Below the pieces are notes generated by a model. That model was given only the letters and a program-made list of their open reading frames with translations, had not been told where the DNA came from and did not search any database. The translations under genes were made by a program, and so were the position numbers. From NCBI GenBank assembly GCA_036365515.1, contig CM070873.1, positions 87,441,948 to 87,505,947 on the forward strand: 64,000 bases of DNA, read 5' to 3'. How positions within the stretch are numbered: the stretch's first letter is position 1; each line of letters opens with the position of its first letter. Of this stretch, positions 16,618-57,382 are shown one piece after another. This DNA is from Torymus aiolomorphi. Taxonomy: Eukaryota > Arthropoda > Insecta > Hymenoptera > Torymidae.

Positions 16618-18745
16618 TCATCAAACATATTCAGCCAGCGAGCATAAATTACTACTTAACGCCCAAGGGGCGTAATAGCTCATATATACAGCTCTTACAA
16701 AACTTTATAGAACCTACGCACTTTACGTCCATGTGGGAAAAATTATTTGAATTGTATAATATTATATATAAGTACATTCAAATTATTCATTGTAAATCAA
16801 ACAAACGAAAGTTGTGAAATCAATTACCGATAGTCAAGTAATGCAAACAACTCTGCGAAACAATTGTATAACTGTTCTCAGAAATGTATTCAAATTTGTT
16901 CATTCTTCTATACAAATTAAACACAAGGAAGTTCTGGAATCAGTTTATTGTAGTCAAGTACCCATAGGTTAACTTGACTGACATAATACAACTTTTAGTA
17001 CCTACTCATCAAACATATTCAGCCAGCGAGGATAAAGTACTACTTAACGCTTAACAGGCGCAATAGCTCACATACTCCTACAAAACTTTATAGAACCTAC
17101 GCACTTTACGCCCATATGGGCGAAAATTATTTTAATCATATAACTACTATGCCTTCTTTTTATTTCTAAAATTCATAAGAATTCAGATATTTACGAAAAG
17201 TCAAAGCCTATATAAAAAAATTACATAGTTACCACCATATCACCATTTTTCATTATTCTTTCTCAATTTTGAAATTTCTATAATATTACGCATCTTGGGA
17301 GGGCAATAGAAGTCTATAGAGCTGCTCTAGCAGGGGTGGTCTTCAATCTCCCATACATACTTGGCGGGCCCGACGGTTTGCAGTTTACCGGTGGGCTTTG
17401 TAAATGTAGAATACTATATTATTGCATAAATTCATTAACAATGTTTATACTTATAAGTCCACTATAAATAATTACATTGGCTCTAATTTTGAATTGATAC
17501 CGTTTAAATATAATATCCCTACATGTGCAAAATCTCATGATGTACTTCCATTACCCAAAATATTTTTCCTTGTGTCCGTTTTTTTTAAGCGGGAATCTGA
17601 TATAAAAAATACATCAAATTTATAGTCTACTCAAAAGTGCTTTAGATTTTACTAACCATTGTATAAGCCACTAATTTTTTATCCTTTTCCAACGTGTAAA
17701 TATCATGTGAGATTTTAATGAGTATTTCAGACATCAGATCTCATATGAGGTATGATATATGTGATGTCATCTGCAATTTTACATATTATGGGATCTCATG
17801 AGATCTTATATGAGATCTCATATGATATTTTCATGCGGGTTTGCACTTTCTATTTAAAAACAGAGTAATAAATTCAATACGTATTAGTATTTAATATATA
17901 GAAGCAACCTATTTATTCATTTTATCTGATCTGTAAACATATGAATATTTATATGGAAATGATCATGTCTACACCTTAAACTGCAAACCGTCGGGCCCGC
18001 CAAGTATGTATGGGAGATTGGAAGACCACCCCTGCTAGAGCAGCTCTATAGACTTCTATTGCCCTCCCAAGATGCGTAATATTATAGAAATTTCAAAATT
18101 GAGAAAGAATAATGAAAAATGGTGATATGGTGGTAACTATGTAATTTTTTTATATAGGCTTTGACTTTTCGTAAATATCTGAATTCTTATGAATTTTAGA
18201 AATAAAAAGAAGGCATAGTAGTTATATGATTAAAATAATTTTCGCCCATATGGGCGTAAAGTGCGTAGGTTCTATAAAGTTTTGTAGGAGTATGTGAGCT
18301 ATTGCGCCTGTTAAGCGTTAAGTAGTACTTTATCCTCGCTGGCTGAATATGTTTGATGAGTAGGTACTAAAAGTTGTATTATGTCAGTCAAGTTAACCTA
18401 TGGGTACTTGACTACAATAAACTGATTCCAGAACTTCCTTGTGTTTAATTTGTATAGAAAAATGAACAAATTTGAATACATTTCTGAGAACAGTTATACA
18501 ATTTTTCGCAGAGTTGTTTGCATTACTTGACTATCGGTAATTGATTTCACAACTTTCGTTTGTTTGATTTACAATGAATAATTTGAATGTACTTATATAT
18601 AATATTATACAATTCAAATAATTTTTCCCACATGGACGTAAAGTGCGTAGGTTCTATAAAGTTTTGTAAGAGCTGTATATATGAGCTATTACGCCCCTTG
18701 GGCGTTAAGTAGTAATTTATGCTCGCTGGCTGAATATGTTTGATG
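16618..18745. mobile_element. Large foldback element, copy 1
   Basis: The arms are highly similar from tcaaacatattcagccagcg (16621) to its complement near 18742, with the midpoint near 17682. Landmarks are cttggcgggcccgacggttt (about 17361) and its complement (about 17985). The centre is rich in palindromic gagatctcatatgagatct-like phrases. Each arm contains an internal duplication of an approximately 370-bp module (16650 and 17030 on the left). No transposase ORF is present. A related, diverged copy lies at 26698-28240. Confidence 0.8.
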
Positions 18746-19015
18746 AGTAGGTACGAAAAGTTGTATTATGTCAGTCAAGTTAACTTATGGGTACTTGACT
18801 ACAATAAATTGATTTCAGTACTTTCTTGTGTTTAATTTGTACAGAAAGATTAACAAATTTGAATACATTTCTGAGAACAGTCATACAGTAGTTTCCGAGA
18901 GTGGTTTGCATTACTTGACTATCGATAATTGATTTCACAACTTTCATTTGTCTGATTTGCAATGAACAATTTGAATGTACTTACTTACATATAATTTGTT
19001 CATTATACAATGACT
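18746..19015. repeat. Extra module copy beside foldback copy 1
   Basis: This is a direct, diverged copy of the module seen inside the foldback arms at 18360-18610, with landmarks gtcagtcaagttaac and ttacttgactat. Further copies of the module occur at 28240-28580 and 28720-28910. Confidence 0.6.
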
Positions 19016-31599: not shown

Positions 31600-32501
31600 A
31601 GAAGCATCGAATGCGTGGACTACGTCTTTGAGGTGGCCGATGATGGACTCTAGGTGGTGCGCTCCGTAGTTTTATGCATTAAGATCTCAGGGTGAATCTA
31701 ATACGTGGCCCAGGTGTTCGGAGTAGCCGATGACGATATCTATTATAGGTGGTGCACTCCGCAGTTTTTTGCATCTAGGTGTCGGAATGCATTCCATATC
31801 TGGTCTAAGTGGTCTGGGTAGCCGATGACAGAGTCTGGGTGATGCGCACCGTAGGTTTGTGGCTCTAGGTGTTGGAACTTATCGAATGCGTCGTCTAGGT
31901 GTTCCGGGTGACCGATTACGGAGTCTAGGTGGTGCGCATCGTACGTTTTTGGATGTAGGTGTTGGAACACATCGAATGCGTGGTCTAGGTCTTTGGCGTA
32001 GCCGATTACGGAATCTAGGTGGTGCGCACCGTAGATTCTTGGCTGTAGGTGTTGAATCTTATCGAATACGTGGTCCAGGTGTTCGGGGTAGCCGAAAACG
32101 ATGTCTAGGTGGTGCGCTCCGTTTTTTGCATCTAGGTGTTGAAACACATCGAATACGTGGTCTAGGTCTTTGGGAGAGCTGATCATGATGTTTAGGTAGT
32201 GCGCTCCATAGCTTTTTGGCTCCAGGTGTTGGAACGTATCGCAAACGTGGTGAACGAGGAAAACTACGGAGCGAATTACCTAGCCACCGTCATCGGTTAC
32301 CTCGACCACCTAGACCACGCATGGAATGCATTCCGACACGCAGACGCAAAAAACTATGGAACGCACCACCTAGACATCGTCATTGGCTATCACGAACACC
32401 TGGACCACGTATTCGATGAGATCCAACACATACAGCCAAGAACCTACGATGCGCACCACCTAGATTCCGTAATCGGCTACCCCAAAGACCTAGACCACGC
32501 A
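31600..32501. repeat. 90-bp tandem repeat, left part (inverted then direct)
   Basis: Units carry the phrase gcgcaccacctagactccgt or its complement every 90 bp. The orientation flips near 32225-32255, making a hairpin. Because 90 is a multiple of three, open frames run through the array on both strands, giving 30-residue peptide repeats with HLDHVFD and GAHHLDSVIGYP motifs. I see no promoter, start context or splice site, so I do not call a gene. Confidence 0.8.
32496..32501. repeat. Target-site duplication CACGCA, left
   Basis: This 6-bp sequence precedes the AGTAGATAAG terminus and is repeated exactly at 46317-46322. The surrounding 90-bp repeat reads accacgcattcgatg in uninterrupted units, so the undisturbed site can be reconstructed from neighbouring units. 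Confidence 0.85.
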
Positions 32502-33010
32502 AGTAGATAAGCTAGGCCGGTTCTGCATCAAACAAGTCCTGACGTGTCTGATGCAGAACCGGCCTAGGGTTTCTGGCTCACCCGTAATTGCACGGGCCCC
32601 ATTACCCCATGTCAGGTCCTGTCGTGTCTGATACAGAACCGGCCTAGGGTTTTTGGCTCACCCATTAACCCATAACAGGTTAAGACCTGCCTGATGCAGA
32701 ACCGGCCAAGGGTTTCTGGCTCATCCGTAATATCACGGGAAGCTAATAACCCAGGCCAGCTTGAGCCAGAACCGCCACATCGATTCTGGCTCAACTGCAC
32801 ACGTCAGGTCTTGCCCGCTGACTCTCGGTTGTCCCAATATCCTATCGCGTCAGGCCTTGCCCGGAGGGAGCGAGCCGCGGGCAGCGAGCGGCCAGCAATA
32901 GCCTGCTGCAAACGGGCAGCGGTAGCAGCCGGCGGTGGGCAGCGGGCGGCCTGCTGCTTGTCAGCCTGCAGCACTCGGCCAGCGGTTCTTATCTACTATA
33001 ACCATTAAAA
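32502..33010. repeat. Terminal GC-rich inverted repeat, left arm
   Basis: GC-rich sequence pairs with 45845-46316. Right at the terminus is a stem-loop: ggccggttctgcatca and its complement tgatgcagaaccggcc at about 32515-32566. Further copies of the phrase gatgcagaaccggcc follow, giving several potential hairpins per end. Confidence 0.75.
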
Positions 33011-33112
33011 ACTATTATGCAATCATTTAAATCTTTTTATAACCCTTTTGCTCGGGCAAAGAATACGTGTTTGTGGAAACTTTTTTCTGAATATTTTTTC
33101 CACTGCGACTGT

Positions 33113-33172
33113 TTAATTGTTTTGTATGAGTCGCTGTTGCTCGGGAGCAACGGTCGAGCTGCTTTGACCCAT
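33113..33172 (-). pseudogene. Truncated left-arm copy of the MGQSSS ORF
   Basis: It starts with the same ATG and first 13 codons as the 48-codon ORF at 45691-45837, then meets an in-frame TAA at codon 20. Homology with the right-arm copy continues past the stop, so this is a broken copy. Confidence 0.6.
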
Positions 33173-33442
33173 TGTTAGGGAATGAAAGGCTCTAACGGCT
33201 ACAACGCGTTTATATATACGACAGACTGCACCGTAGCGCCACCTAGTGGTCATGTATTAATTAAAAATTTTTTTTAAGGGGGGGTAGGAGCCCCACCTCG
33301 CTCCTATCCTGTGAGGTTCTACCTGTCTATCAACCTCTCCATTATCCTTCAAATATTTTTTTTATTCGGCATTCTCTTCCATGTTGTACACTCCATTATG
33401 GTTAGTACCATTGCGAATATTTAAAAGTTTTCACGAAAAAAA

Positions 33443-33950
33443 CGCCGGAGGGTGGATTCGAACTCACGATCTCTAGATTACTGAGCAACCACCTTACCAC
33501 TCGGCTATCGAGACATATGTATACTCATAGCTTAATTTATATTCTTATAGCGCGATGCCTTCACGGTAGTGCCGTCGGTAAGGTAGAACACTGTAGGTAA
33601 ATGAATATACTCTACCGATAAACATTAATAATTTAATATAAAAAGTTTTCATGAAAAAAACGCCGAAGGGTGGATTCGAACCTGCGATCTTCAGATTACT
33701 GAGCAGCAACTTTACCACTCGACTATCGACATATATGTATGCTCATAGCTGAATTTGTATCTAATAATAGCACGCGCAAGGCCTCAATGTTCACGGTGGT
33801 AAGGTAGAATACTGTATTAATATACTTTACTGATAAACATTAATATTTAATATAAAAAATTTTTAAGAAAAAAAACAAAATCGCCGGAGGTTGAATTTAA
33901 ACTAACGATCTTTAGATTACTGAGCAGCCACCTTACACTAGGCTATCGAG
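33443..33950 (-). repeat. Three tRNA-like units, left arm
   Basis: Units lie at about 33443-33514, 33661-33730 and 33882-33950 on the minus strand. They mirror those at 44911-45430. Each has an A-box-like tagccgagtgg (or variant), a B-box-like ggttcgaatcc (or variant) 43 nt later, and a T run just after the 3' end. Confidence 0.55.
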
Positions 33951-34069
33951 TCATATACATACTCATAGCTGAATTACGAGGACGCTGCGCGCGTATTTTG
34001 CACAATTTTGAGGTTATGAAAATTTTGTATATAGCGTATGGTTCTATGTAAAAAATTGATAGCCCCCCT

Positions 34070-34640
34070 ATTGGAATACACCCCCCAAAATTTCATCCGT
34101 TTTTCGATCCGAGCGCTCCTTCTCGAGTTATAAGTGAAAAACCAAAATTTCTACCCCCACCACAGGTTTTTGGAAATTCCGTCAACGTCATTCGATAGTA
34201 TATTAAAAGTATGTCCCCCCTATTGTTACGCCCCCAAAATTTCGTCCATTTTTCGATCCGAGTGCTCCTTCTCGAGATATAAGCGAAAAACCAAAATTTC
34301 TACGCCCACCACCGATTTTTGGAAATTCCGCCAACGTCATTCGATAGTATATTAGAAGTATGTCCCCCCTATTGTTACAGCCCCAAAATTTCGTCCGTTT
34401 TTCGATCCCAGCGCTCCTTCTCGAGATATAAGCGAAAAACCAAAATTTCTACCCCCACCACCGATTTTTGGAAATTCCGCCAACGTCATTCAACAGTATA
34501 TTAAAAGTATGTCCCCTTATTGTTACAGCCCCAAAATTTCGTCCGTTTTTCGATCCGAGCGCTCCTTCTCGAGTTATAAGCAAAAAACCAAAATTTCTAC
34601 CCCCACCACTGGTTTTCGAAAATTCTTTCAATGGACAAAT
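34070..34640. repeat. 148-bp tandem repeats, left arm
   Basis: About four units carry the phrase ccaaaatttctaccccca. The mirror copy at 44380-44790 has about three units. Short ORFs through it follow from the repeat and are not convincing genes. Confidence 0.75.
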
Positions 34641-34649
34641 TATGAGATA

Positions 34650-36249
34650 TCCCTCAGAGCTAGATAAAACGCCCCGGCCCTGCCAGGTGTACGGCAGGCC
34701 TTGAACAGGTTGCCTTAAAATTTTGATGCTTGTTCAATACTTATCTAAACCTAGGTATATGCCCTATTTTTCGAAGTATCATCCAAATAACGCTTCCGAA
34801 TTTGACAGTCCCATATACAGACAGTTCATGGGAAAATTATAAAAAATGGGCTGGAACCCGCCTGGCAACATGTTATGAACAGGCCGCATGACTCAACTGA
34901 TGTGGTTAGGCGCGAAAATTTAAAATATTTAACTCATAAAATAGAAAATAGTTTGAGACCTTTGTATTATAAAAATAATACTGATATTCTTTTACGATTA
35001 CTCCAACATTTTTGCATCACAGAAGTTTAAATTAATACTTTTTTAATATTTAGAAAAGAAATATAATGTATTAAAATATATATAGTGTGCGCTTGATTTC
35101 AGCTAGTTCTCTCCCTTTTGAAAAATAATACCTATGTTTGAATGCAAACTATTCAGGTCACATATGATTTATTTATAGTGTTTTAAACCTTCTCAAGGTG
35201 AAATAAAAATTGCAGCATATAGTTTATTTATTTGATTTCACAAACAATATTACTAACATATTACACAAGTAAAAAAAAAAAATACCTAGGTAGTTCCTTT
35301 AGTGGGACAGGGTTTTTGAGCAAAAGTTACACAAACAGCCGGTAGTGGGATAATTTGAGGTTCTGCTGGTCAATATTAGATTTTCAACACTCTACAAATA
35401 CCAAAAATAATGCTTTTTTTGCACGCAAATAATTATTGCAAAATTATAGTAAAAAAACATCATTGAACACCTCTATTCAGTGTATAAAATGTATGTAGCG
35501 ACTCATTTATATTATCCTATTATAAACAGTTTATACATGTAATAAGTCTTATAAAATAATAAATGCTCAAATTTATTGTAGAAAATGGCAATGCTATCCG
35601 TAAAATAAATAAATAAATACTACTCAATTATAGACACCCTACATACTTAAAATTTAGCGAGGCACTCAATTTTCGTATCTTGAATAATAGTTGAATGTTT
35701 ATAAACGAATTGAAAGTATAAACATTATTCAAAGAAAGAAAGATACATAGTTTTTCAGATGACTTTTATCGTTTTAAAATTGAAATGAATGAGGCGGTTG
35801 AAAGGGGAATTTTTACTTTTATTTATTGGATAATCAATTTAATACTGTCCCGGACACCCACCTGTTCTGCAGATTAGGGCTTAACATGTATAACTCGGAA
35901 AACTCAGGTACGCAAAACGTGAACTGCTACGCAGTTGAAAATCTGAGTTCGTGATCTGAGCTCGGCAGTCACTGCAGTTTTTCCGCGACTCTGAATCCTT
36001 TATATCATTCACCTTAAATAATCGGTTATTCCAGGCTCTTCATTTGTCAACAGAGCACGGCGGGAAATAGAAAAAAAATGACAGGGTATTTGAAAATATT
36101 TGTTTACCAAAATAATTTTATTGAAAATTAACACGTGGCTTAGCCAATATCTCAATTTTTAGATAATCTAGTGCAATATAACTGTGAAAGATTAATTTAT
36201 GATACTAGCATTGCGAAGTTCACTAAGAATAAAACGGATTACACCATAG
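34650..36249. other. Left-arm spacer, mirror of 42756-44340
   Basis: AT-rich sequence is shared between the arms. It contains, at about 35290-35385, a phrase family (agtgggac...ttgaggttct) also found at 300-440 of the window, and the left copy of the TATA/Inr pair described at 42997. No ORF of note. Confidence 0.5.
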
Positions 36250-37273
36250 TTAGTTCTTATTCCCATGTTTTGCTCAGCAACGAGTACTTGTAAGCGATCA
36301 ACTAATTTGTTAGGATCATCCCAACGTCGAGTTCGTATGCAGTTGTAACATCTACTCGCGAGATTTTGGGAGCAACTTCTTCCTCTTCATCATCACTAGT
36401 CCTCTGTCTCTTTTTACTTTCACGTTGATATCTCCAATTAATAAAGTTATAATTCTTACGAATTCTTCTAGGTAAATATTCATTGATTGAGAAATCTGAT
36501 GCATCTTCACTAGAATGATCAGCTTCATAATAATTATCGGTCTCGTTAGAAGTTGGAAGATGCGAGTTAACTGGTGTATCAACCGTTATGAGCTTCTTTA
36601 AAGGATTGACTATTGGTTCAAGTATCTTTTTCGCTGCCACTGGATTAGTTTGCTCAATCCTTTCACTTTTCTCTGTTCCGTTAACATTATCTTCTCGAGA
36701 TAATGGCGAGATACTTTTTACAGACGACTTTTCGAACATTGGAGCAATAAAATTATAAAATTTGTTACTCTTTAGTTTTCGAATCGACTCATTCACGCAA
36801 TAGTGCTTTTTGTGAGCGCTCGAAACTTCAATAATCATACGATAATTATCCAAATCATCTGAATTGATAAGACTTTCACCCGGAAGTTTTTTGAATAGTA
36901 ATTGCAGTAATCCTACGGACAAACGATAGTTTCGTTTCTTTATCTGGACAAAGTCGCCTTCAAATTTTATTGGAGAATTTCCGATCATAAGTAAATTTCC
37001 TCGCTTCTAAACACCATAAATATTATCCAGATATCTCCTAGAATTTCCGTTTAATTTCGTTACATATTTCTTGACTAGTATTGCAAATTTACCATTATTG
37101 GAGCTAGCTATTTTATTATGGTCAGGGCTCATATTAGATAGTTTGATTTCAGAAGTTTCCATATCATCAGCTGTATCCAGAGATTCAGAACTTTTTGTCA
37201 AACCTAATAAAGACTGTGATTTTTGTACTACTGCATCCTGAAATTTGCTAATAACATCCGGTGTGTTTGCCAT
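36250..37273 (-). pseudogene. Broken left-arm copy of the 341-codon gene
   Basis: It is nearly identical in frame to the right-arm gene at 41730-42755, but disabled in three places. Codon 89 (Tyr in the right copy) is TAG at 37007-37009. One base is missing at about 36323-36324, shifting the frame near the end. The stop codon has changed (TAT instead of TAA at the mirror position). It shares the same 5' leader with a TATA box and initiator. The lesions are absent from the other arm, so the arms diverged after duplication. Confidence 0.85.
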
Positions 37274-37284
37274 GTTTATGCTTC

Positions 37285-39940
37285 AATAGTTTAGCATCAA
37301 CTGAATAAATATACCGCCAACATCCTTTTTATACTTTTATGCTATTATAGAGTAACACCTTTTATATCATACAGTAAAAACTTTTAAACTTTTATGCTAT
37401 AGAGTAACACCTTTTTGAACTTTTATTCTATTATAGAGTAACACATTTTCATGTTGTAGAGTAACACCTTCTATGTCATACAGTTAAAACTTTTTAAACT
37501 TTGTGTCATAGAGCAATACCTTTTTTATTTCATAAAGTAGCACCTTTTTATGTCATTGAGTGACATGTTTTTTATGTCATAGAGTTACACCTTTTTTATG
37601 TCATAGAGTGACATCTGTTTTATGTTACAGAGTCATACCTTTTTTATGTCATAGAGTGACACCTTTTTTATATTATAGAGTAACACCTTTTTCATTGCTA
37701 TATAGTAACACCTTTTTGAACTTTTATGTCATAGAGTAACACCTTTTTATGTTATTTAGCATCATCTTAATAAATATATCGCCAACATCCCTTCTATATA
37801 CTTTTATACTATAGAGTGACACTATCTTGAACTTATCTGCTATTATAGAGTAGTACCTTCTATGTCAGACAATAACATCTTTTTACACTTTATGTCATAG
37901 AGTAACACATTTTTTATGTCATAGAGTAACACCTTTTTTATGTTATAGAGTCACACCTTTTTATGTCATAGAATAACACCTTTTTTATGTCATAGAGTGA
38001 CATCTGTTTTATGTTACAGAGTCATACCTTTTTTTATGTCATAGAGTAACATCTTTTGTGTCATAGAGTGACACCTTCATTGCTATATAGTAACACCTTT
38101 TTACACTTTATGTCATAGAGTAACACCTTTTTATGTTATTTAGCATCATCTGAATAAATATATCACCAACATCCTTTTTATATTTGTATACTATAGAGTA
38201 ACACCATCTTGAACTTATCTGCTATTATAGAGTAGCACCTTCTATGTCACACAATAATATCTTTTTACACTTTATGTCATATAGTAACACCTTTTTTATG
38301 TTATAGAGTCACACGTTTTGTATGTCATAGAGTAACACCTTTTTTATGTCATAGAGTAACACCTTTTTTATGTCATAGAGTGACATGTTTTTTATGTCAT
38401 AGAGTTACACCTTTTTTATGTCATAGAGTGACATGTTTTTTATGTTACAGAGTCATACCTTTTTTATGTCATAGAGTGACACCTTTTTTATATTATAGAG
38501 TAACACCTTTTTCATTGCTATATAGTAACACCTTTTTGAACTTTTATGTCATAGAGTAACACCTTTTTATGTTATTTAGCATCATCTTAATAAATATATC
38601 GCCAACATCCCTTCTATATACTTTTATACTATAGAGTGACACTATCTTGAACTTATCTGCTATTATAGAGTAGTACCTTCTATGTCAGACAATAACATCT
38701 TTTTACACTTTATGTCATAGAGTAACACATTTTTTATGTCATAGAGTAACACCTTTTTTATGTTATAGAGTCACACCTTTTTATGTCATAGAATAACATC
38801 TTTTTTATGTCATAGAGTAACACCTTTTTTATGTCATAGAGTGACATGTTTTTTATGTTACAGAGTCATACCTTTTTTTATGTCATAGAGTAACATCTTT
38901 TGTGTCATAGAGTGACACCTTCATTGCTATATAGTAACACCTTTTTACACTTTATGTCATAGAGTAACACCTTTTTATGTTATTTAGCATCATCTGAATA
39001 AATATATCGCCAACATCCTTTTTATATTTGTATACTATAGAGTAACACCATCTTGAACTTATCTGCTGTTATAGAGTAGCACCTTCTATGTCACACAATA
39101 ATATCTTTTTACACTTTATGTCATATAGTAACACCTTTTTTATGTTATAGAGTCACACCTTTTGTATGTCATAGAGTAACACCTTTTTTATGTCATAGAG
39201 TAACACCTTTTTTATGTCATAGAGTGACATGTTTTTTATGTCATAGAGTTACACCTTTTTTATGTTATAGAGTGACATGTTTTTTATGTTACAGAGTCAT
39301 ACCTGTTTTATGTCATAGAGTGACACCTTTTTTATATTATAGAGTAACACCTTTTTCATTGCTATATAGTAACACCTTTTTGAACTTTTATGTCATAGAG
39401 TAACACCTTTTTTATGTCATAGAGTAACACCTTTTTTATGTCATAGAGTGACATGTTTTTTATGTCATAGAGTTACACCTTTTTTATGTCATAGAGTGAC
39501 ATGTTTTTTATGTTACAGAGTCATACCTTTTTTATGTCATAGAGTAACAGCTTTTTTATGTCATAGAGTAACATCTTTTGTGTCATAGAGTGACACCTTC
39601 ATTGCTATATAGTAACACCTTCTTGAACTTTTATGTCATAGAGTAACACCTTTTATGTTATTTAGCATCATCTGAATAAATATATCGCCAACACCCTTTT
39701 TATACTTTTATACTATAGAGTAACACCATCTTGAACTTATCTGCTATTATAAAGTAGCACCTTCTTTGTCACACAATAACATCTTTTTACACTTTATGTC
39801 ATAGAGTAACACCTTTTTTATGTTATAGAGTCACACCTTTTTTATGTCATAGAGTAACACCTTTTTTATGTCATAGAGTAACACCTTTTTTATGTCATAG
39901 AGTAAGACCTTTTTATGCTACAGAGTAACACCTTTTATGA
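37285..39940. repeat. Promoter-like tandem array, left arm
   Basis: The basic unit of about 24-26 bp reads like tttatgtcatagagtaacac. Superimposed is a higher-order repeat that carries, on the minus strand, tataaaaagg...gatatatttattcagatgatgct. This is the TATA box, initiator and leader of the adjacent gene. Such promoter-like blocks lie near 37300, 37770, 38165, 38590, 39000 and 39675. Confidence 0.85.
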
Positions 39941-39942
39941 TG

Positions 39943-40186
39943 ACGTCTCTCTACCTATAAACTGTTCGTACACAATAAGTGGTGATAATGGTGATGATGG
40001 TGGTGATGGCGTCTCTTACCCGTAAGCTTTTCCTATATAATAAGCTCAACATCACCACTACCATCGCCATCATCACCACTTATTATATAGGAAAAGCTTA
40101 CGGGTAAGGAGACCCCATCACCACCATCACCGCCATCATCACCACTTATTGTGTACGAACAGTTTATAGGTAGAGAGACGTCATCA
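39943..40186. repeat. Central hairpin of the palindromic element
   Basis: gacgtctctctacctataaa (39943) pairs with its complement ending at 40186. A second paired block, aagcttttcctatataataag, with its complement surrounds a short loop at about 40046-40078. GAT/ATC trinucleotide runs (ggtgatgatggtggtgat and complement) fill both arms. Confidence 0.85.
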
Positions 40187-41665
40187 TAAAAGGTGTTACT
40201 CTGTAGCATAAAAAGGTCTTACTCTATGTCATAAAATAGGTGGGACGCTATAACATAAAAAAGGTGTCACTCTGTGCCATAAAAAAAGATGTTACCCTAT
40301 GACATAAAAAAGGTGTGACTCTATAACATAAAAAAGGTGTTACTATATGACATAAAGTGTAAAAAGATATTATTGTGTGACATAGAAGGTGCTACTCTAT
40401 AATAGCAGATAAGTTCAAGATGGTGTTACTCTATAGTATAAAAGTATAAAAAGGGTGTTGGCGATATATTTATTCAGATGATTCTAAATAACATAAAAGG
40501 TGTTACTCTATGATATAAAAGTTCAAAAAGGTGTTACTATATAGCAATGAAGGTGTCACTCTATGACACAAAAGATGTTACTCTATGACATAAAAAAGGT
40601 ATGACTCTGTAACCTAAAAAACATGTCACTCTATGACATAAAAAAGGTGTAACTCTATGACATAAAAAAGGTGTTACTCTATGACATAAAAAAGGTGTGA
40701 CTCTATAACATAAAAAAGGTGTTACTCTATGACGTAAAGTGTAAAAAGATGTTATTGTGTGACATAGAAGGTGCTACTCTATACTATCAGATAAGTTCAA
40801 GATGGTGTTACTGTATAGTATAAAAGTATAAAAAGGGTGTTGGCGATATATTTATTCAGATGATGATAAATAACATAAAAGGTGTTACTCTATGACATAA
40901 AAGTTCAAAAAGGTGTTACTATATAGCAATGAAGGTGTCACTCTATAACACAAAAGATGTTACACTATGACATAAAAAAGCTGTTACTCTATGACATAAA
41001 AAAAGGTATGACTGTAACATAAAAAACATGTCACTCTATGACATAAAAAATATGTCACTCTATGACATAAAAAAGGTGTTACTCTATGACATAAAAAAGG
41101 TGTCACTCTATGACATAAAGTGTAAAAAGCTGTTATTGTGTGACATGGAAGGTACTATTCTATAATAGCAGATAAGTTCAAGATAGTATTACTCTATAGT
41201 ATAAAAGTATAAAAAGGATGTTGGCGATATATTTTTTAAGATGATGCTAAATAACATAAAAAGGTGTTACTCTATGACATAAAAGTTCAAAAAGGTGTTA
41301 CTCTATAATATAAAAAAGGTGTCACTCTATGACATAAAAAAGGTATGACTCTGTAACATAAAAAAGATGTCACTCTATGACATAAAAAAGGTGTAACTCT
41401 ATGACATAAAAAACATGTCACTCTATGACATAAAAAGGTGCTACTTTATGAAATAATAAAGGATTGCTCTATGACACAAAGTTTAAAAAGTTTTAACTGT
41501 ATGACATAGAAGATGTTACTCTATAACATGAAAATGTGTTACTCTATAACATGAAAACGTGTTACTCTATAATAGAATAAAAGTTCAAAAAGGTGTTACT
41601 CTATAGCATAAAAGTTTAAAACTTATGACTGTATGATATAGAAGGTGTTACTCTATAGTAGCATA
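40187..41665. repeat. Promoter-like tandem array, right arm
   Basis: This is the inverted counterpart of 37285-39940 but only about 1.5 kb long. The basic unit is gtgttactctatgacataaa. Higher-order blocks with tataaaaaggg...tatttattcagatgatg occur near 40445 and 40828, and a diverged one near 41208. The gene-proximal block is at 41670. Confidence 0.85.
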
Positions 41666-41669
41666 AAAG

Positions 41670-41705
41670 TATAAAAAGGATGTTGGCGGTATATTTATTC
41701 AGTTG
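41670..41705 (+). promoter_or_regulatory. Core promoter of the 341-aa gene: TATA box and initiator
   Basis: TATAAAAAGG at 41670-41679 is followed by TTCAGTTG at 41698-41705, putting the initiator A (41701) 31 bp from the start of the TATA box. This is the textbook arthropod arrangement. The ATG follows at 41730, a leader of about 29 nt. Confidence 0.75.
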
Positions 41706-41729
41706 ATGCTAAACTATTGAAGCATAAAC

Positions 41730-42755
41730 ATGGCAAACACACCGGATGTTATTAGCAAATTTCAGGATGCAGTAGTACAAAAATCACAGTCTTTATTAGG
41801 TTTGACAAAAAGTTCTGAATTTCTGGATACAGCTGATGATATGGAAACTTCTGAAATCAAACTATCTAATATGAGCCCTGACCATAATAAAATAGCTAGC
41901 TCCAATAATGGTAAATTTGCAAAACTAGTCAAGAAATATGTAACCAAATTAAACGGAAATTCTAGGAGATATCTGGATAATATTTATGGTGTTTACAAGC
42001 GAGGAAATTTACTTATGATCCGAAATTCTCCAATAAAATTTGAAGGCGACTTTGTCCAGATAAAGGAACGAAACTATCGTTTGTCCGTAGGATTACTGCA
42101 ATTACTATTCAAAAAACTTCCGGCTGAAGGTCTTATCAATTCAGATGATTTGGATAATTATCGTATGATTATTGAAGTTTCGAGCGCTCACAAAAAGCAA
42201 TATTGCGTGAATGAGTCGATTCGTAAAATAAAGAGTAACAAATTTTATAATTTTATTGCTCCAATGTTCGAAAAATCGTCTGTAAAAAGTATCTCGCCAT
42301 TATCTCGAGAAGATAATGTTAACGGAAGAGAGAAAAGTGAAAGGATTGAGCAAACTAATCCAGTGGCAGCGAAAAAGATACTTGAACCAATAGTCAATCC
42401 TTTAAAGAAGCTCATAACTGTTGATACACGAGTGAACTCGCATCTTCCAACTTCTAACGAGACCGATAATTATTATGAAGGTGATCATTCTAGTGAAGAT
42501 GCATCAGATTTCTCAACCAATGAATATTTACCTAGAAGAATTCGTAAGAATTATAACTTTATTAATTGGAGATATCAACGTGAAAGTAAAAAGAGACAGT
42601 GGACTAGTGATGAAGAGGAAGAAGTTGCTTCCAAAATCTCGCGAGTAGATGTTACAACTGCATACGAACTCGACGTCTGGGATGATCCTAACAAATTAGT
42701 TGATCGCTTACAAGTACTCGTTGCTGAGCAAATCATGGGAATAAGAACTAACTAA
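41730..42755 (+). CDS. Intact 341-aa element-encoded protein, function unknown
   Basis: A single-exon ORF of 341 codons lies directly downstream of a TATA/initiator promoter. Residues about 80-180 (around YGVYKRGNLLMIRNSP, GLLQLLFKK, DDLDNYRMI, SSAHKKQY, KFYNFIAPMF) form the best-structured part. They remind me of a domain of unknown function (possibly DUF8207) common in arthropod repeat-associated proteins; this is recollection, not a search result. The rest is Ser/Asn/Asp-rich and probably disordered. The C-terminal third has a basic patch (RRIRKNYNF, 269-277) and an acidic run (DEEEEV, 294-299), suggesting nuclear or nucleic-acid contact. There is no signal peptide or membrane segment. A broken copy sits in the other arm (36250-37273), so this is the only intact copy here. 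Confidence 0.75.
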   Translation: MANTPDVISKFQDAVVQKSQSLLGLTKSSEFLDTADDMETSEIKLSNMSPDHNKIASSNNGKFAKLVKKYVTKLNGNSRRYLDNIYGVYKRGNLLMIRNSPIKFEGDFVQIKERNYRLSVGLLQLLFKKLPAEGLINSDDLDNYRMIIEVSSAHKKQYCVNESIRKIKSNKFYNFIAPMFEKSSVKSISPLSREDNVNGREKSERIEQTNPVAAKKILEPIVNPLKKLITVDTRVNSHLPTSNETDNYYEGDHSSEDASDFSTNEYLPRRIRKNYNFINWRYQRESKKRQWTSDEEEEVASKISRVDVTTAYELDVWDDPNKLVDRLQVLVAEQIMGIRTN

Positions 42756-42996
42756 GGTGAAATCCGTTTTATTCTTAGTGAACTTCGCAATGCTAGTATC
42801 ATAAATTAATCTTTCAAAGTTATATTGTGCTAGATTATCTAAAAATTGAGATATTGGCTAAGCCACGTGTTAATTTTCAATAAAATTATTTTGGTAAACA
42901 AATATTTTCAAATACCCTGTCATTTTTTTTCTATTTCCTGCCGTGCTCTGTTGACAAATGAAGAGCCTGGAATTACCGATTATTTAAGGTGAATGA

Positions 42997-43030
42997 TATA
43001 AAGGATTCAGAGTCGCGGAAAAACTGCAGT
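42997..43030 (+). promoter_or_regulatory. Second TATA/initiator pair, right arm
   Basis: TATAAAGG at 42997-43004 is followed at the canonical distance by gcagtgac, with the A at 43027, 30 bp from the TATA start. The first ATG downstream (43111) opens only 17 codons, so any transcript would be non-coding or encode a very short peptide. A mirror copy exists in the left arm near 35970-36010. Confidence 0.4.
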
Positions 43031-44379
43031 GACTGCCGAGCTCAGATTACGAACTCAGATTTTCAACTGCGTAGCAGTTCACGTTTTGCGTACCTGAGTT
43101 TTCCGAGTTATACATGTTAAGCCCTAATCTGCAGAACAGGTGGGTGTCCGGGACAGTATTAAATTGATTATCCAATAAATAATAGTAAAAATTCCCTTTT
43201 CAACCGCCTCATTCATTTCAATTTTAAAACAATAAAAGTCATCTGAAAAACTATGTATCTTTCTTTCTTTGAATAATGTTTATACTTTCAATTCGTTTAT
43301 AAACATTCAACTATTATTCAAGATACGAAAATTGAGTGCCTCGCTAAATTTTATGTATGTAGGGTGTCTATAATTGAGTAGTATTTATTTATTTATTTTA
43401 CGGATAGCATTGCCATTTTCTACAATAAATTTGAGCATTTATTATTTTATAAGACTTATTACATGTATAAACTGTTTATAATAGGATAATATAAATGAGT
43501 CGCTACATACATTTTATACACTGAATAGAGGTGGTTCAATGATGTTTTTTTTACTATAATTTTGCAATAATTATTTGCGTGCAAAAAAAGCATTATTTTT
43601 GGTATTTGTAGAGTGTTGAAAATCTAATATTGACTAGCAGGACCTCAAATTATCCTACTACCGGATGTTTGTCAAAAAACTTTTGCTCAAAAATCCTGTC
43701 CCACTAAAGGAACTACCTATGTATTTTTTTTTTTTACTTGTGTAATATGTTAGTAATATTGTTTGTGAAATTAAATAAATAAACTATATGCTGCAATTTT
43801 TATTTCACTTTGAGAAGGTTTAAAACACTATAAATAAATCATATGTGACCTGAATAGTTTGCATTCAAACATAGGTATTATTTTTCAAAAGGGAGAGAAC
43901 TAGCTGAAATCAAGCGCACACTATATATATTTTAATACATTATATTTCTTTTCTAAATATTAAAAAAGTATTAATTTAAACTTCTGTGATGCAAAAATGT
44001 TGGAGTAATCGTAAAAGAATATCAGTATTATTTTTATAATACAAAGGTCTCAAACTATTTTCTATTTTATGAGTTAAATATTTTAAATTTTCGCGCCTAA
44101 CCACATCAGTTGAGTGATGCGGCCTGTTCATAACATGTTGCCAGGCGGGTGCCAGCCCATTTTTTTATAATTTTCCCATGAACTGTCTGTATATGGGACT
44201 TTCAAATTCGGAAGCGTTATTTGGGTGATACTAAGAAAAATAGGGCATATGCCTAGGTTTAGATAAGTATTGAACAAGCATAAAAAATTTAAGGCAACCT
44301 GTTCAAGGCCTGCCGTACACCTGGCAGGGCCGGGACGTTTTATCTACCTCGATCTGAGGGATATATCATAATTTGTCCA

Positions 44380-44790
44380 TTGAAAGAATTTTCGAAAACC
44401 AGTGGTGGGGGTAGAAATTTTGGTTTTTTGCTTATAACTCGAGAAGAAGCGCTCGGATCGAAAAACGGACGAAATTTTGGGGCTGTAACAATTGGGGGGA
44501 CATACTTTTAATATACTATCGAATGGCGTTGGCGGAATTTCCAAAAATCGGTGGTGGGGGTAGAAATTTTGGTTTTTCGCTTATATCTCGAGAAGGCGCG
44601 TTCGGATCGAAAAACGGACGAAATTTTGGGGACGTACCAATAGGGGGGACATACTTCTAATATACTATCGAATGACGTTGACGGAATTTCCAAAAACCTG
44701 TGGTGGGGGTAGAAATTTTGGTTTTTCGCTTATAACTCGAGGAGCGCTCGGATCGAAAAACGGATGAAATTTTGGAGGGTGTATTCCAAT
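44380..44790. repeat. 148-bp tandem repeats, right arm
   Basis: About three units carry tgggggtagaaattttggtt. This is the mirror of 34070-34640, with one unit fewer. Confidence 0.75.
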
Positions 44791-44910
44791 AGGGGGGCTA
44801 TCAATTTTTTACCTAGAACCATATGCTATATACAAAATTTTCATAACCTCAAAATTGTGCAAAATATTTTGCGCGCGCAGCGTCCTCGTAATTCAGCTAT
44901 GACTATGTAT

Positions 44911-45430
44911 ATGACTCGATAGCCTAGTGGTAAGGTGGCTGCTCAGTAATCTAAAGATCGTTAGTTCAAATTCAACCTCCGGCGATTTTTTTTTTTTTTT
45001 TCTTAAAAATTTTTTATATTAAATATTAATGTTTATCGGTAAAGTATATTAATACAGTATTCTACCTTACCACCGTGAACATTGAGGCCTTGCGCGTGCT
45101 ATTAGATACAAATTCAGCTATGAGCATACATATGTGTCGATAGTCGAGTGGTAAAGTTGCTGCTCAGTAATCTGAAGATCGTAGGTTCGAATCCACCCTT
45201 CGGCGTTTTTTTCATGAAAACTTTTTATATTAAAATATTAATGTTTATCGGTAGAGTATATTCATTTACCTACAGTGTTCTACCTTACCGACGGCACTAC
45301 CGTGAAGGCATCGCGCTATAAGAATATAAATTAAGCTATGAGTATACATATGTCTCGATAGCCGAGTGGTAAGGTGGTTGCTCAGTAATCTAGAGATCGT
45401 GAGTTCGAATCCACCCTCCGGCGTTTTTTT
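44911..45430 (+). repeat. Three tRNA-like units with Pol III boxes, right arm
   Basis: Units lie at about 44911-44984, 45135-45206 and 45352-45423, spaced about 220 bp. The third has TAGCCGAGTGG (box A, 45359-45369) and AGTTCGAATCC (box B, 45402-45412), 43 nt apart as in a tRNA, then a T7 run from 45424. The second has a perfect GGTTCGAATCC box B. Each ends in ccggcg or tcggcg followed by an oligo-T terminator. A D-arm can form, but I could not pair the acceptor, anticodon or T stems. I therefore call them tRNA-derived (SINE-like) units rather than functional tRNAs. Confidence 0.6.
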
Positions 45431-45646
45431 CGTGAAAACTTTTAAATATTCGCAATGGTACTTAACCATAATGGAGTGTAAAACATGGAAGAGAATGCCG
45501 AATGAAAAAAATATTTGAAGGATAAGGGAGAGGTTGATAGACAGGTAGAAACCTCACAGGTTAGGAGCGAGGTGGGGCTCTCTGATCCTCCTTCAAATTC
45601 TGACCGCTAGATGGCTCTCGCAAGCAAAGTTAGTCAAGGCTTCGGT

Positions 45647-45654
45647 TATATAAG
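45647..45654 (+). promoter_or_regulatory. TATA box of the 48-aa ORF
   Basis: TATATAAG lies 44 bp before the ATG at 45691. An initiator-like tcattcc lies at about 45678, roughly 30 bp from the TATA start. Confidence 0.5.
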
Positions 45655-45690
45655 CGTGTTGCGGTCGTTAGAAGCTTTCATTCCCTAATA

Positions 45691-45837
45691 ATGGGTCAAA
45701 GCAGCTCGACCGTTGCTCCTGAGCAGCAACAACTGATACAAAACGATACAAAAAAGTCGCAGTGGAAAAAATGTTCGGAAAAATTTTCTACAAACACATA
45801 TTCTTTGCCCGAGCAAAAGTGTTATAAAAAGTTCTAA
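45691..45837 (+). CDS. Small element-encoded protein, 48 aa, myristoylation-type N-terminus
   Basis: The ORF runs ATG to TAA with 48 codons. It begins MGQSSS, which fits the N-myristoylation consensus (Gly2, Ser at position 6). A Gln-rich stretch follows (EQQQLIQ, 11-17), then a Lys/Cys-rich tail (KKSQWKKC, 21-28; EQKCYKKF, 41-48). It is preceded by a well-placed TATA box. The left-arm copy keeps the promoter-like region and the first 13 codons but has a stop at codon 20. If expressed, the predicted product is a membrane-anchored basic peptide. No homologue is recognised, and a short ORF can be accidental. Confidence 0.45.
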   Translation: MGQSSSTVAPEQQQLIQNDTKKSQWKKCSEKFSTNTYSLPEQKCYKKF

Positions 45838-45844
45838 ATATTTA

Positions 45845-46316
45845 CTAGTAGATAAGAACCGCTGGCCGAGTGCTGCAGGCTGACAAGCAGCAGGCCGCCC
45901 GCTGCCCGCCGCCGGCTGCTACCGCTGCCCGTTTGCAGCAGGCTGCCGCTGGCCGCTCGCTGCCGGCGGCTCGCTCCCCCAGGGCAAGGTCTGACTTTAC
46001 GGCTGGCCTAGAACGGGCAAAACCTGATCGAGAATCGGTAGGCCGGTTCTGGCTCAACTCGTTGGCGCGCGGGTGAGTCAGAGGCGGTATACCGATTCTG
46101 CAGATCTGGGTTATTGACTCCCCGTGCAACTACGGGTGACCCAAAAACCCTATGCCGGTTCTGCATCAACAGGTCTTGACCTGTAACATGGGTTAATGGC
46201 GCCCGTGCAATTGCGCGGGGAGGGGGAGGGGGGAAGGGGGTCCAAAAAAGCTATGCCGGTTCTGCATCAGACAAGTCTCGACCTGTTTGATGCAGAACCG
46301 GCACAGCTTATCTACT
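45845..46316. repeat. Terminal GC-rich inverted repeat, right arm
   Basis: This is the mirror of 32502-33010. The terminal stem-loop is tgccggttctgcatca...tgatgcagaaccggca at about 46254-46302, and the final bases are AGCTTATCTACT. The 94- and 68-codon ORFs through this Ala/Gly/Arg-rich DNA are not convincing. Confidence 0.75.
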
Positions 46317-46322
46317 CACGCA
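46317..46322. repeat. Target-site duplication CACGCA, right
   Basis: Exact match to 32496-32501. The 90-bp repeat continues immediately with ttcgatgtgttccaac. Confidence 0.85.
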
Positions 46323-46740
46323 TTCGATGTGTTCCAACGCCTAGATGCAAGAAACTACGGAGCGCACCACCTAGACTCCGTAATCGGTCACCCTGAACAC
46401 TTAGACGACGCATTCGATGAGATCCAACACCTACAGCCAAAAACCTACGGTGCGCACCACCTAGACTCCGTAAGCGGCTACCCCGAACACCTGGACAACG
46501 TATTCGATGAGATCCAACACCTACAGCCAAGAACCTACGGTGCGCACCACCTAGACTCCGTAATCTGCTACCCCGATCACCTAGACCACGCGTGGGATGC
46601 ATCTGACACACAGATGCAAAAAACTACGGAGCGCACTACGTAGACTCCATAATCGGTCACCCTGAACACCTAGGCGACGCATTCGATGAGTTCTAACACC
46701 TAAAGCCACAAACCTACGGCGCGCACCACCTAGACTCCGT
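46317..46740. repeat. 90-bp tandem repeat, right part
   Basis: Four to five units in direct orientation continue the array interrupted at 32501. A 118-codon frame runs through it for the same arithmetic reason as on the left. Confidence 0.8.
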
Positions 46741-46947
46741 CATGGGCCACCATTTACGAAGCTAATGAGCCATTTATTTGTATCAAGAAATCACTTTTCT
46801 TATTATAGCATTCATTGGCCAACCGCAAGGCTTATTCCGTGACGAAATAAGCGGCAATTATTACCAACCGTTGGTTAAACGGCTGGCCAAACCTTTGCGA
46901 TTTGATGAACAGATGCTGAACGGTTGGTTACCATTTCTACCAGGGTA

Positions 46948-54800: not shown

Positions 54801-57382
54801 TGATTTTTTTTTCAGAAGTTTTTGAGACATTTTTTGATTTTTCAAAAATGTTAAAAATTAAAAAATTCAAAATTGGTTCAAAAACTTCTGAAAAAATTCA
54901 TACGTATTTTTTGAGTGATTCTAAGCATTTTTTGTCCTATAACATTTTTTCGTTAAGTTCATACATTTCGAGAAAAAAAATCATGAAGTTTAACATTACG
55001 CTGTTTCACAAAATCCGCCATTTTGGAAAAGCTAAAAGGGGAAAAAAGATTCACAACCAGTGTTTTGGAAACGCCAGACATTCGGACCGCGATTTCTGGC
55101 GGTAATATGATTATCCAAAAACAGAAACAGTAACAAAAATTGATTTGAAAAAAAAATTTTATTAAATGTTTTGACTTTTTTTTTAAAAAACTCAAAAATA
55201 ATACACTTACTGACTTTTTTTTACAAAATAAGTTGCAGATTCTGAAAGAGCACCCTCGAAAACCCCCTATAGAGGATTTTGGATAAAAATGACTTTGTTT
55301 TTCCAATAGAATTCTGTACTTGAAAATGTGTGCACAAAAATGTGCATTTGCGCGTTAATGGGTTAAATCAAGACACCTTATTAATGTATGAATTCAAAAC
55401 TTACTTAATTATTTCTCCATATTCATCTACTTTAATTTTTTCTTCCACAAAAGGAAACATAGGATGTTGTTTTTTACTTTGTTTGAAAAAACCTGGCTTA
55501 TGCTCTTGTTTAACAAGTAAATCATGTTTTCCTCTGCCACCTCCAACTTCTATTTCATCCTCAGACTCTGAACTAACATCAGCAGTTTCCCTAAAAAAAT
55601 TTCAATGTTTATTTGACATAAGGAACAGTTGAAATATTAGTAATTAATAAAGTTATACATTTTTTCTTGTTTCATTTGCTCTTGCTTCTGTTTTTCTTTT
55701 TTCATGTGTTCTTCTAGTTCAGATCCCTCCAATTTTACTTTCTTTTTTATCTCTAAAGTTATGTTTCTGTTTCCCCCATTTTCTACAAGATCTCTAGCGA
55801 GGGTACCTGGAGAAGTTCTGCTGGTTATTATGATACTATTTTGTGGATTGCTGCACCATTGTAGAAATAAATCACGAGAGAATCCACATTCCATATCTGG
55901 AGTGCTAGCTAATACAACCTAATTATTTCACAACAAATAAATAGAAGGTAGTTGAATATTTTAAAAATGATTTCTTATTAGTTTGTAGATCTTTATAGAG
56001 AAAAATATTTGTACAATATATTGTCATACAATATATATTTACATTCTCTTTATATTTTGTACGTATTATTATATTTAACTAAAAAATTTTAAAATGAAAA
56101 TATTATTCAAATGATGAATAAAAAAAGACTTTGAATAAAAAACACAAACTTATTCAATCAGTAATTATATTGCACATTACCTTGGGACTAGGAACTTGAT
56201 TCAATTCTGCCATGCTGTGGCATAATTGTAAATGTTTAAATTGAAATGGATTATTCCTTGCACCTTCAAAACTTTTCATCAATTTATCACTCATCCACTC
56301 AATTTGTGATTTTGCAAATTCGACAACATTATAACTGACATTATTTAACAGTGCTAAAGAATATGCAAGTAAACCAGATTCTTTGTTGCGCCATAATTGA
56401 TCCAACATATGTGCTAATTCCAAAACTCTACCAGCAGTATCCACACCTACAAGAACATTTCCTCCACCACGAAGAGTCTGAAGAATATTTGCTACAATAA
56501 CAAAAAGAAAGAATAAAATTAACCAAAAATTTTGTTGACATTTAATTAGTCTTTAGTTTATTACTCTTACTTACTCATTAGTTTTTCATCTCTTGTACGT
56601 CGCCTAGCTTGTTGGTAAGTAGCATTAAAACTATCTGTTATGAGCAATGAGGGTCTTTGTAATCTTTCTAACTCACACCCATTTAAATGTCTTTCCTTTT
56701 TGTGATTAAAGTCTACTGCATATATAATATCTTCTTCACCAACTTTTACAATTTTCCATATAGTTCCACCTATCATATGACCAGCTGGTAAAGGTGTTAA
56801 TGTGACTCCATATCCTTTACCCTTCATTGATATACTCTGATTGTATTTCAATTGTACAATTTTGTCAAAAGCTGCATCAACATCATCAAGAGTAAATAAA
56901 TTAAAATCTTCCATATTGTGACGTGACTGAAAAAAATATTTTAATATTACCTAAATACTGAATTTTAATGTGCTACATAAGTTCAATTTTTTTTTATATG
57001 TTTTACCTGATATATATCGTACATAAACATTTGCCCCATTTTATAAACAGGAATCGTTGCGTATATAGGACAATTTAGACCACATTTACCAACTAAGTAA
57101 GGCAAAGCTCCTAAATGTAATGGATCAGGATATGACAATAAAACAGCATCTATTTGATGAACATGTCTAAAAATAATTTAGAATTCATCCACATATACAA
57201 AATAAAATTTGATTTATTAAAAATAAGAAATACCTTTTCAATTCTTTAATAAAATCTTGATTAAAATTTTCATCCCATCCACAATCCAACAAAATACGTA
57301 ATTCATCTACTTGCAATATGTAACATGGTGGCGATTCATCTAAAGTTCCTGATATAGCATGTAACTTAATAATTGACGTCAT
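51801..57382 (-). CDS. CPSF2: Cleavage and polyadenylation specificity factor subunit 2 (CPSF100)
   Basis: CPSF100 is the catalytically inactive metallo-beta-lactamase/beta-CASP partner of CPSF73 in the nuclear mRNA 3'-end cleavage complex. Ten exons give 737 aa (about 780 in vertebrates): 57234-57382, 57007-57166, 56575-56926, 56181-56491, 55659-55918, 55405-55590, 53425-53794, 52406-52600, 52199-52336 and 51801-51893. All introns are GT-AG and phases agree. The N-terminus [20 protein letters not shown] and C-terminus LLYEQYAIV are family hallmarks. The usual HxHxDH zinc motif is replaced by SYPDPLHLG (61-69), as expected for this inactive paralogue. A charged linker (about 385-440) interrupts the beta-CASP region. 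Intron 6 is 1610 bp and consists almost wholly of a piggyBac-type element. Introns 7 and 9 also hold repeats. The reading frame itself is intact. Confidence 0.97.
51955..52165. mobile_element. Inverted-repeat element in CPSF2 intron 9
   Basis: The arms (ttgcaccttgct...gcgccttgcgtcaagc and complement) pair across a centre near 52055. It makes up most of the 305-bp intron. Confidence 0.65.
52795..53310. repeat. Repeat cluster in CPSF2 intron 7
   Basis: Five to six diverged units of roughly 43 bp (acaggtgagaaat...atttct) lie at 52905-53110. A GC-rich palindromic stretch around cgggcgccttcggcaccc follows at 53190-53300, and then the edge phrase acaatgtactattgg, like that of the family A modules. 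No ORF. Confidence 0.6.
53833..55362. mobile_element. piggyBac-type element in CPSF2 intron 6
   Basis: The 1530-bp element starts CCCATTAACGCGCAAATGCA and ends with its complement. Terminal inverted repeats extend over 50 bp, and TTAA flanks both ends (53829-53832 and 55363-55366), the hallmark of piggyBac. Inside are further inverted duplications (54130-54340; 54740-54960) and a transposase C-terminal remnant. The CPSF2 splice sites flanking it are intact. Confidence 0.85.
54255..54530 (+). pseudogene. Degenerate piggyBac transposase C-terminus
   Basis: A frame with ...[15 protein letters not shown]... ends at a stop near 54451. In another frame, 54459-54497 encodes [13 protein letters not shown], the cysteine-rich zinc-binding end typical of piggyBac transposases. 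The first part is also present in inverted orientation at about 54130-54230. The catalytic core is absent. Confidence 0.6.

Follow-up and report, generated by a model that had tools for sequence, protein, structure and literature searches.

How can an element that ends like a Polinton, and is inserted like one, be built as a mirror image around a single gene in two copies? The question is raised by a locus of Torymus aiolomorphi (contig CM070873.1 of assembly GCA_036365515.1) within the window, that is, the whole stretch of 64,000 nucleotides analysed here. At 32502..46316 (no strand assigned) the window contains a palindromic element of 13,815 bp whose termini, AGTAGATAAG...CTTATCTACT, are inverted repeats with an AG start and a CT end. 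The element is best read as a member of a family of non-autonomous Polinton satellites that is present in many copies and is very probably mobilised in trans by autonomous Polintons of the same genome (hereafter helpers). That the satellite swaps its ends and has a self-complementary genome is the favoured reading of the evidence and, on the whole, a probable one.

Insertion site and helper Polintons

The exact 6-bp duplication CACGCA is present on both flanks of the element (32496..32501 and 46317..46322, unstranded), and a first-pass annotation of the window, which had reported AG...CT-type ends, a length of 13.8 kb and this duplication, was right on all these points. The target was an array of 90-bp repeats, which the element interrupts. 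When the flanks were joined, the 90-bp register was kept: identity was 76% at lag 90, whereas lags 89 and 91 gave 22% and 24%. This agrees with the earlier claim that the target can be reconstructed from the neighbouring repeats. The repeats of the array (31605-32251 on the minus strand, 32252-32501 and 46317-46751 on the plus strand) have open units of 30 residues and run in two opposite directions, and the one frame that was scanned matched no Pfam family at the curated cut-off.

Relatives were searched for in 1.08 Gb of genome sequence in 21 contigs, with the window lying on contig C1, and the best candidates of each search were scored (40 of 1063, 40 of 792, and 125 of 13,436). The first 599 bp of the element gave at least 80 genome matches (best 40 of 1063 candidates), around which 20 stretches, cut at 10 kb and representing 17 elements, were fetched. 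Polinton structural proteins were encoded in 11 of the 17 (L009, L018, L019, L020 and L022-L028), and satellite arms were found in the other six, with both arms in L010/11, L012/13 and L014/15 and one arm within the stretch in L016, L017 and L021. The terminus search, advised by the first-pass annotation as a way to find other copies and an autonomous partner, accordingly brought out both satellites and Polintons with integrase and PolB. These Polintons, with the same termini and 6-bp duplications in the same genome, lend good support to its proposal of a non-autonomous relative that would be mobilised in trans.

Within the 10-kb stretches of the 11 helpers, an integrase was found in eight, PolB in six and a helper-type DUF8207 protein in eight, that of L023 being an 18-residue fragment. 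Eight helper proteins were scanned against Pfam; five of them matched (integrase, PolB, Pox_A32-type ATPase, PLA2-like protein and double jelly roll capsid) and three gave no Pfam match, namely DUF8207 and the proteins labelled penton-like and ORFx in the present analysis. Helper PolB also matched nothing among PDB sequences at E 0.01. One helper, L028/L065, was resolved end to end as 18,840 bp with TATAGT on both sides, and for L020 no far end was found within 11 kb more sequence. The helper integrase gave at least 125 genome matches (best 125 of 13,436 candidates) of 89-100% identity, counted whatever their element ends, and by our count 96 of the 125 scored matches had no internal stop.

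Used as tblastn queries at E 1e-3, the helper proteins detected no integrase, PolB, packaging ATPase or capsid match in the window, and DUF8207 was the only one of the eight to match it. The first-pass statement that the element has no Polinton genes was therefore mistaken, each arm carrying a homologue of the local Polintons' DUF8207 gene. Descent of the whole arm from a sampled helper was considered and rejected, since the arms match helpers only in the termini and the distant DUF8207 gene. As a separate observation, ORFx relics of 41-56% identity lie near the middle of satellites (L014:6646-6877, L017:6528-6677 and L021:2408-2633); ORFx is the helper's terminal gene, and ORFx-like genes stand near both ends of the gene block in helpers L020 and L028. 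A similar frame, presumably mariner-like, is inserted in one satellite arm (L012:3873-4895) and in two Polintons (L019:7374-8450 and L025:3727-4803).

A family of palindromes with 6-bp duplications

All matches of an arm-internal query were at least 97% identical (best 40 of 792 candidates). Eight head-to-head pairs, the window's included, made up 16 of the 40 scored arm matches at spacings of 3.7-9.2 kb, and the remaining 24 had no nearby partner among the scored matches. With this architecture found repeatedly at separate chromosomal sites, chance is an unlikely explanation of it. Seven further pairs were probed, of which three were resolved and four had one end beyond the fetched piece. Together with these three, nine elements were resolved at both ends. 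The first-pass annotation had regarded copies lacking 6-bp duplications as grounds for giving up its interpretation; the duplications were exact in seven of the nine elements and agreed at 5 of 6 positions in two. Seven of the nine are satellites (five exact, two at 5/6) and two are helpers. The exact duplications are CACGCA in the window, CTTGTT in L009, CATAAT in L010/11, CCTCTC in L029/30, TACATC in L033/34, CATTTC in L041/42 and TATAGT in L028/65, and the imperfect ones are AGCAAA/AGCGAA in L012/13 and AACGTA/AACATA in L014/15.

The centre of nested palindromes of the window element (39937..40190, unstranded) has homologues in L010, L014, L017 and L021, occurring twice and inverted in the last two, and no match to it was found in the stretch fetched for L016. 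Considering that the centre recurs in several elements, the palindrome appears to be ancestral instead of arising afresh at each insertion.

Probable exchange of element ends

Comparison of the first 390 bp of 25 ends from satellites and helpers revealed three groups, each of which mixes ends of satellites and helpers or of different satellites. Type I, with 91-99% identity, unites the left end of the window element with helpers L009, L018 and L020 and satellites L016, L017 and L021. Type II, with 94-97% identity, comprises satellites L010/11, the right end of L015 and helper L022. Type III, with 92-98% identity, contains the right end of the window element and L029-L042, the former being 92-94% identical over 390 bp to the ends of the palindromic copies. 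L012/13 (96% mutually), the left end of L014, L024 and L028 stand apart. No obvious agreement between end types and interiors was seen by eye.

The two ends of the window element itself are only 78% alike over their first 390 bp. In 100-bp steps, the leftmost 300 bp match Polintons L009 and L020 with 98-100% identity and the element's own right end with 66-85%, and inward of 33302 the relation is reversed, with 96-100% identity to the other arm versus 46-80% to the four helpers compared. The simplest reading is that ends recombined between helper and satellite. The exact duplication outside two unlike ends shows that both were inserted together. The ends are Polinton-like, as first annotated, in that the left type is common with autonomous copies, but they are no matched pair, the right end being of another type.

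Likeness of the two arms

Each arm has the same order from end to centre: a terminal region of ~0.8 kb (type I at 32502..33300 on the plus strand, type III at 45570..46316 on the minus strand), 218-bp tandem repeats (33423..33975 and 44890..45443), 149-bp tandem repeats (34083..34625 and 44386..44797), a stretch without long frames, a DUF8207 gene transcribed in the direction of the nearest element end, a 24-bp minisatellite (37433..39936 on the plus strand, 40188..41572 on the minus strand) and the centre; the 218-bp and 149-bp repeats have no assigned strand. Self-alignment, which had been suggested as a check, displayed the inverted arms at 93% identity (34215-38882 versus 44797-40182) and at 86% in the outer part (32502-34477 versus 46316-44386). 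Counted over ungapped columns in 200-column steps, the inner arms from 33278 to 37255 are 94-99.5% identical, and identity falls to 65-93% in the outer 0.78 kb. In the 149-bp array the arms differ in length at two places, by 55-97 columns, and the central 24-bp arrays measure about 2.5 kb on the left versus 1.4 kb on the right. The earlier description as nearly fully palindromic therefore fits the inner arms, but not the differing end types, the unequal 24-bp arrays or the broken left gene. Likewise, the inverted arms of the same gene order stand, with DUF8207 in each, although the left copy is broken and the right one open.

The 218-bp repeats of both arms contain tRNA-like stretches (33451-33507 on the minus strand and 45359-45415 on the plus strand) with A- and B-box look-alikes; ARAGORN called no tRNA in them.

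Variants private to one element were then counted in two sets of arms. The first set consisted of five segments with 2230 ungapped columns and 10 or 11 arms each, including four elements with both arms. Of its 34 derived variants present in exactly two arms, 25 were in arms of the same element, such pairs being 4 of the 55 possible. The four elements contributed 13, 7, 5 and, for L014/15, 0 variants, which, small as the numbers are, were spread across all five segments and not confined to one tract. For the second set, a single 853-bp segment was compared in 28 arms. Nine elements had both arms in it, of which two (the window and L010) were reused from the first set and seven were new; L012 and L014 were represented by one arm only as their other arm was interrupted or split. 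Here 26 of 41 two-copy variants fell in same-element partners (9 of 378 pairs) and all nine elements contributed; the highest value among 100,000 random pairings was 21. Partner arms differed by 0.6-1.8%, with a mean identity of 98.77% versus 97.65% for non-partners, and the own partner was the nearest neighbour for 13 of 18 arms.

These shared variants could have come about either by copying of one arm into the other before insertion or by conversion between the arms afterwards. Copying before insertion is favoured, without settling the matter, because unlike ends and one-arm insertions persist. The putative hairpin-dimer genome suggested in the first-pass annotation gains indirect support from the private variants common to both arms.

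A hairpin at the termini of satellites and helpers

A terminal hairpin of ~55 nt begins 10 nt inside each end of the element (32512..32566 on the plus strand and 46252..46306 on the minus strand), with DNA folding z-scores of -8.9 and -10.2 at the two ends. In 26 of 32 ends, from satellites and helpers, 97.2% of the cells of an 18-pair stem were paired, a count that is biased towards structure because six ends were removed beforehand: the left end of L029, in which an insert precedes the hairpin, and L010 left, L011 right, L022 left, L023 left and L039 left. Changes on both sides of the stem occurred in 39 cells, compared with 13.5 for shuffled and no more than 6 for slid controls, although the independent events are fewer than 39 because related ends inherit changes together. 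Seven stem pairs carried such changes versus 4.1 in shuffles. Compensatory changes thus appear to maintain the terminal hairpin in both satellites and helpers. Nine Rfam matches in the terminal and central palindromes were rejected, being microRNA precursor models that fit a hairpin shape and all scoring below the gathering score.

The DUF8207 gene

The right DUF8207 copy (41721..42755, plus strand) reads open for 344 codons, or 341 when counted from its first ATG (41730), and this Polinton-type gene is the longest open frame of the element. The left copy (36192..37282, minus strand) is broken and split over several frames. Six matches of 54-79% identity to the window protein were found among 1561 candidates, the top one being 77% identical over 99% of the query, and all six carry the precomputed label PF26634.1, the family that we take to be DUF8207. 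A search with the alignment of these homologues gave 26 matches among 6484 candidates, 17 labelled PF26634.1 by our count. A Pfam scan with the library copy used gave no PF26634 match for the window protein, and in a scan of both DUF8207 frames and one flanking frame neither DUF8207 frame hit the Rep/NS1 or parvovirus capsid families. Comparison of the protein with Pfam, PHROGs and PDB sequences returned weak, irrelevant matches only, and a literature search found no paper naming DUF8207.

The homologue of the local Polintons is encoded between the ATPase and the integrase and is 45-49% identical over 115 amino acids, with further matching motifs. A short motif, PIV(N/D)PL(K/Q)KL, lies C-terminal to the core in the window protein and N-terminal to it in the helper protein. 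The AlphaFold model of the window protein is confident in the core alone, at about residues 80-185 (mean predicted local distance difference test score, pLDDT, 61), and no PDB structure matched it at E ≤0.001. The sole fold match in BFVD at this threshold came from Cotesia sesamiae bracovirus and is a DUF8207 protein; this would be in keeping with a Maverick known from bracoviruses.

Among the arms, 19 synonymous and 74 non-synonymous variants and 5 stops were counted in 271 codons, a non-synonymous to synonymous ratio per site of 1.02, indicating that inserted DUF8207 copies decay freely. Long-term constraint is no more than suggested by the conserved core among the six 54-79% identical proteins.

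Proposed mechanism and alternatives

The favoured reading, an end-swapping satellite with a self-complementary genome, can be turned into the following model. The satellite would supply the cis sequences, that is, termini that mostly include the hairpin, and a divergent DUF8207 gene in two mirror copies, and the integrase and presumably the protein-primed DNA polymerase would be provided by autonomous Polintons of the same genome. Strand displacement by that polymerase would free a self-complementary strand, which would fold at the central palindrome; during completion or mismatch correction, one arm would then template or correct the other, and the arms would become alike. The helper integrase would insert the double-stranded palindrome with a 6-bp stagger. 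Ends may be swapped through template switching among helper and satellite genomes copied together, and the terminal hairpins may act in recognition or end replication. That the arms were copied by fold-back before insertion is somewhat favoured. A fuller version is put forward tentatively, in which an animal Polinton virus would have a heritable satellite with a self-complementary hairpin-dimer genome: the protein-primed polymerase of the helper would copy it through a fold-back form that renders the arms alike in every cycle, new hairpin ends would be acquired from helpers by template switching and the satellite's own DUF8207 proteins would exploit the helper.

Several points weigh against this reading. 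Trans-mobilisation is inferred from sequence. Type III ends are without a close helper in the sample, the best being L028 with 82-85%, and L028, the sole complete helper, has ends alike over about 78 bp only. L012, the middle of which was available, has no match to the centre of the window element. The element L014/15 (C2b) contributes no private shared variant in the first arm set, and gene conversion from arm to arm after insertion would equally yield such variants. Apart from the left end of L029, the ends excluded from the stem count (5 of 32) show no simple stem within 75 nt; they may have longer loops. Finally, no constraint is visible in the within-family DUF8207 variants, and any present function is thus putative.

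The first alternative is that a non-autonomous Polinton derivative became palindromic a single time and that its palindrome is now a passive relic, with the arms kept alike after insertion by gene conversion, a process well known between the arms of chromosomal palindromes. A single origin is suggested by the centre common to L010, L014, L017 and L021, and the shared private variants are compatible with both models. Yet the unlike ends of the window element are still unconverted, the transposase frame in L012 and the interruption in L014/15 persist in one arm each, and the shared variants, though few, are dispersed over five segments; we consider this account rather unlikely. Also rather unlikely is a satellite virus that would travel between cells or hosts in the capsids of its helper, in the manner of virophages or of adeno-associated virus (AAV). 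Genes for capsid, packaging ATPase and PLA2-like proteins are present in the local Polintons, which have element ends in common with the satellites, and snap-back satellite genomes are described for AAV (PMC8235507). Against it, the DUF8207 alignment, when searched against viral contigs, gave 524 pattern matches, among which no relative was confirmed. Putative packaging of the satellite in helper capsids, taken by itself, is possible but doubtful.

An independent transposon of another superfamily, either of foldback type or with its own unseen transposase, that acquired Polinton ends would account for the interior unrelated to helpers except for DUF8207, and its very long inverted repeats and internal tandem repeats would recall foldback elements; considering the 6-bp duplications on satellites and helpers alike, termini nearly identical to those of Polintons and a Polinton-type gene as the longest open frame, it is very unlikely. 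Inverted duplications are a known artefact of long-read assembly, but a mirrored arm is of negligible probability here, since partner arms differ by the 0.6-1.8% given above, arrays and ends are unequal, duplications lie outside both ends of seven palindromic elements and the head-to-head architecture recurs at other chromosomal sites, in eight pairs among the 40 scored matches.

Other features of the window

Elsewhere in the window, 16618-17387 and 17977-18746 form a 770-bp inverted repeat of another repeat family, 99.6% identical, with partial further copies at 26.7-28.7 kb. A frame at 56570-56950 on the minus strand matches cleavage and polyadenylation specificity factor subunit 2 (CPSF2) with E 1.2e-60, and at 63580-63771 33-bp in-frame repeats encode ERKHFRESISE units within a 160-codon frame.

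Comparison with known systems

Our literature search found no paper on non-autonomous, defective, palindromic or satellite Polintons or Mavericks; subscription journals and Repbase lay outside it and may well describe such elements. Polintons have been proposed to be viruses (PMC4028283), and a survey of wasps, as far as its available text goes, reports abundant Polintons and does not mention palindromes or inverted repeats (PMC6035795). The available passages of a review of giant transposons contain nothing on non-autonomous Polintons (PMC6431247). A satellite family beside many integrase copies makes helper dependence, terminus recognition and end replication of Polintons directly testable. 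The hairpin at the very ends, with compensatory changes in both kinds of element, provides a concrete hypothesis for Polinton end replication, and fold-back replication would have left its mark in chromosomes as private variants common to both arms.

The element resembles an autonomous Polinton in its 6-bp duplication, AG...CT ends, near-identical termini and DUF8207 homologue, and end motifs and 6-bp duplications are described for vertebrate Mavericks (PMC8097293). It differs in being mirror-imaged, with one gene in two copies, and in the lack of integrase, PolB, ATPase and capsid matches in the tblastn search of the window. As a non-autonomous Polinton derivative, it should have termini in common with a Polinton of the same genome, as is seen at the left end; the right end has no close helper among those sampled. 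Foldback transposons (FB, Galileo) are P-element relatives with 7-9 bp duplications, very long inverted repeats and internal tandem repeats, from which the element is distinguished by its 6-bp duplication and Polinton-type termini. It would share helper dependence with virophages and satellite viruses, but virophages encode capsids and no capsid match was found in the window. Palindromic defective adenovirus genomes are inverted-duplicated and derive from a linear virus with protein-primed replication; unlike the element, they are neither integrated nor inherited. A literature search for such symmetrical recombinant genomes listed no paper naming them.

With parvoviruses and AAV-like satellites the element has hairpin termini in common, which the local Polintons have too. 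The nearest described molecules that we encountered are the 5'- and 3'-snap-back genomes (SBG) of AAV, self-complementary defective genomes of a hairpin-ended virus (PMC8235507). The resemblance is in the possible mode of action and not in kinship: snap-back genomes are short-lived by-products of a parvovirus, whereas the element belongs to a family that resides in chromosomes, has a gene of its own and bears the 6-bp marks of insertion.

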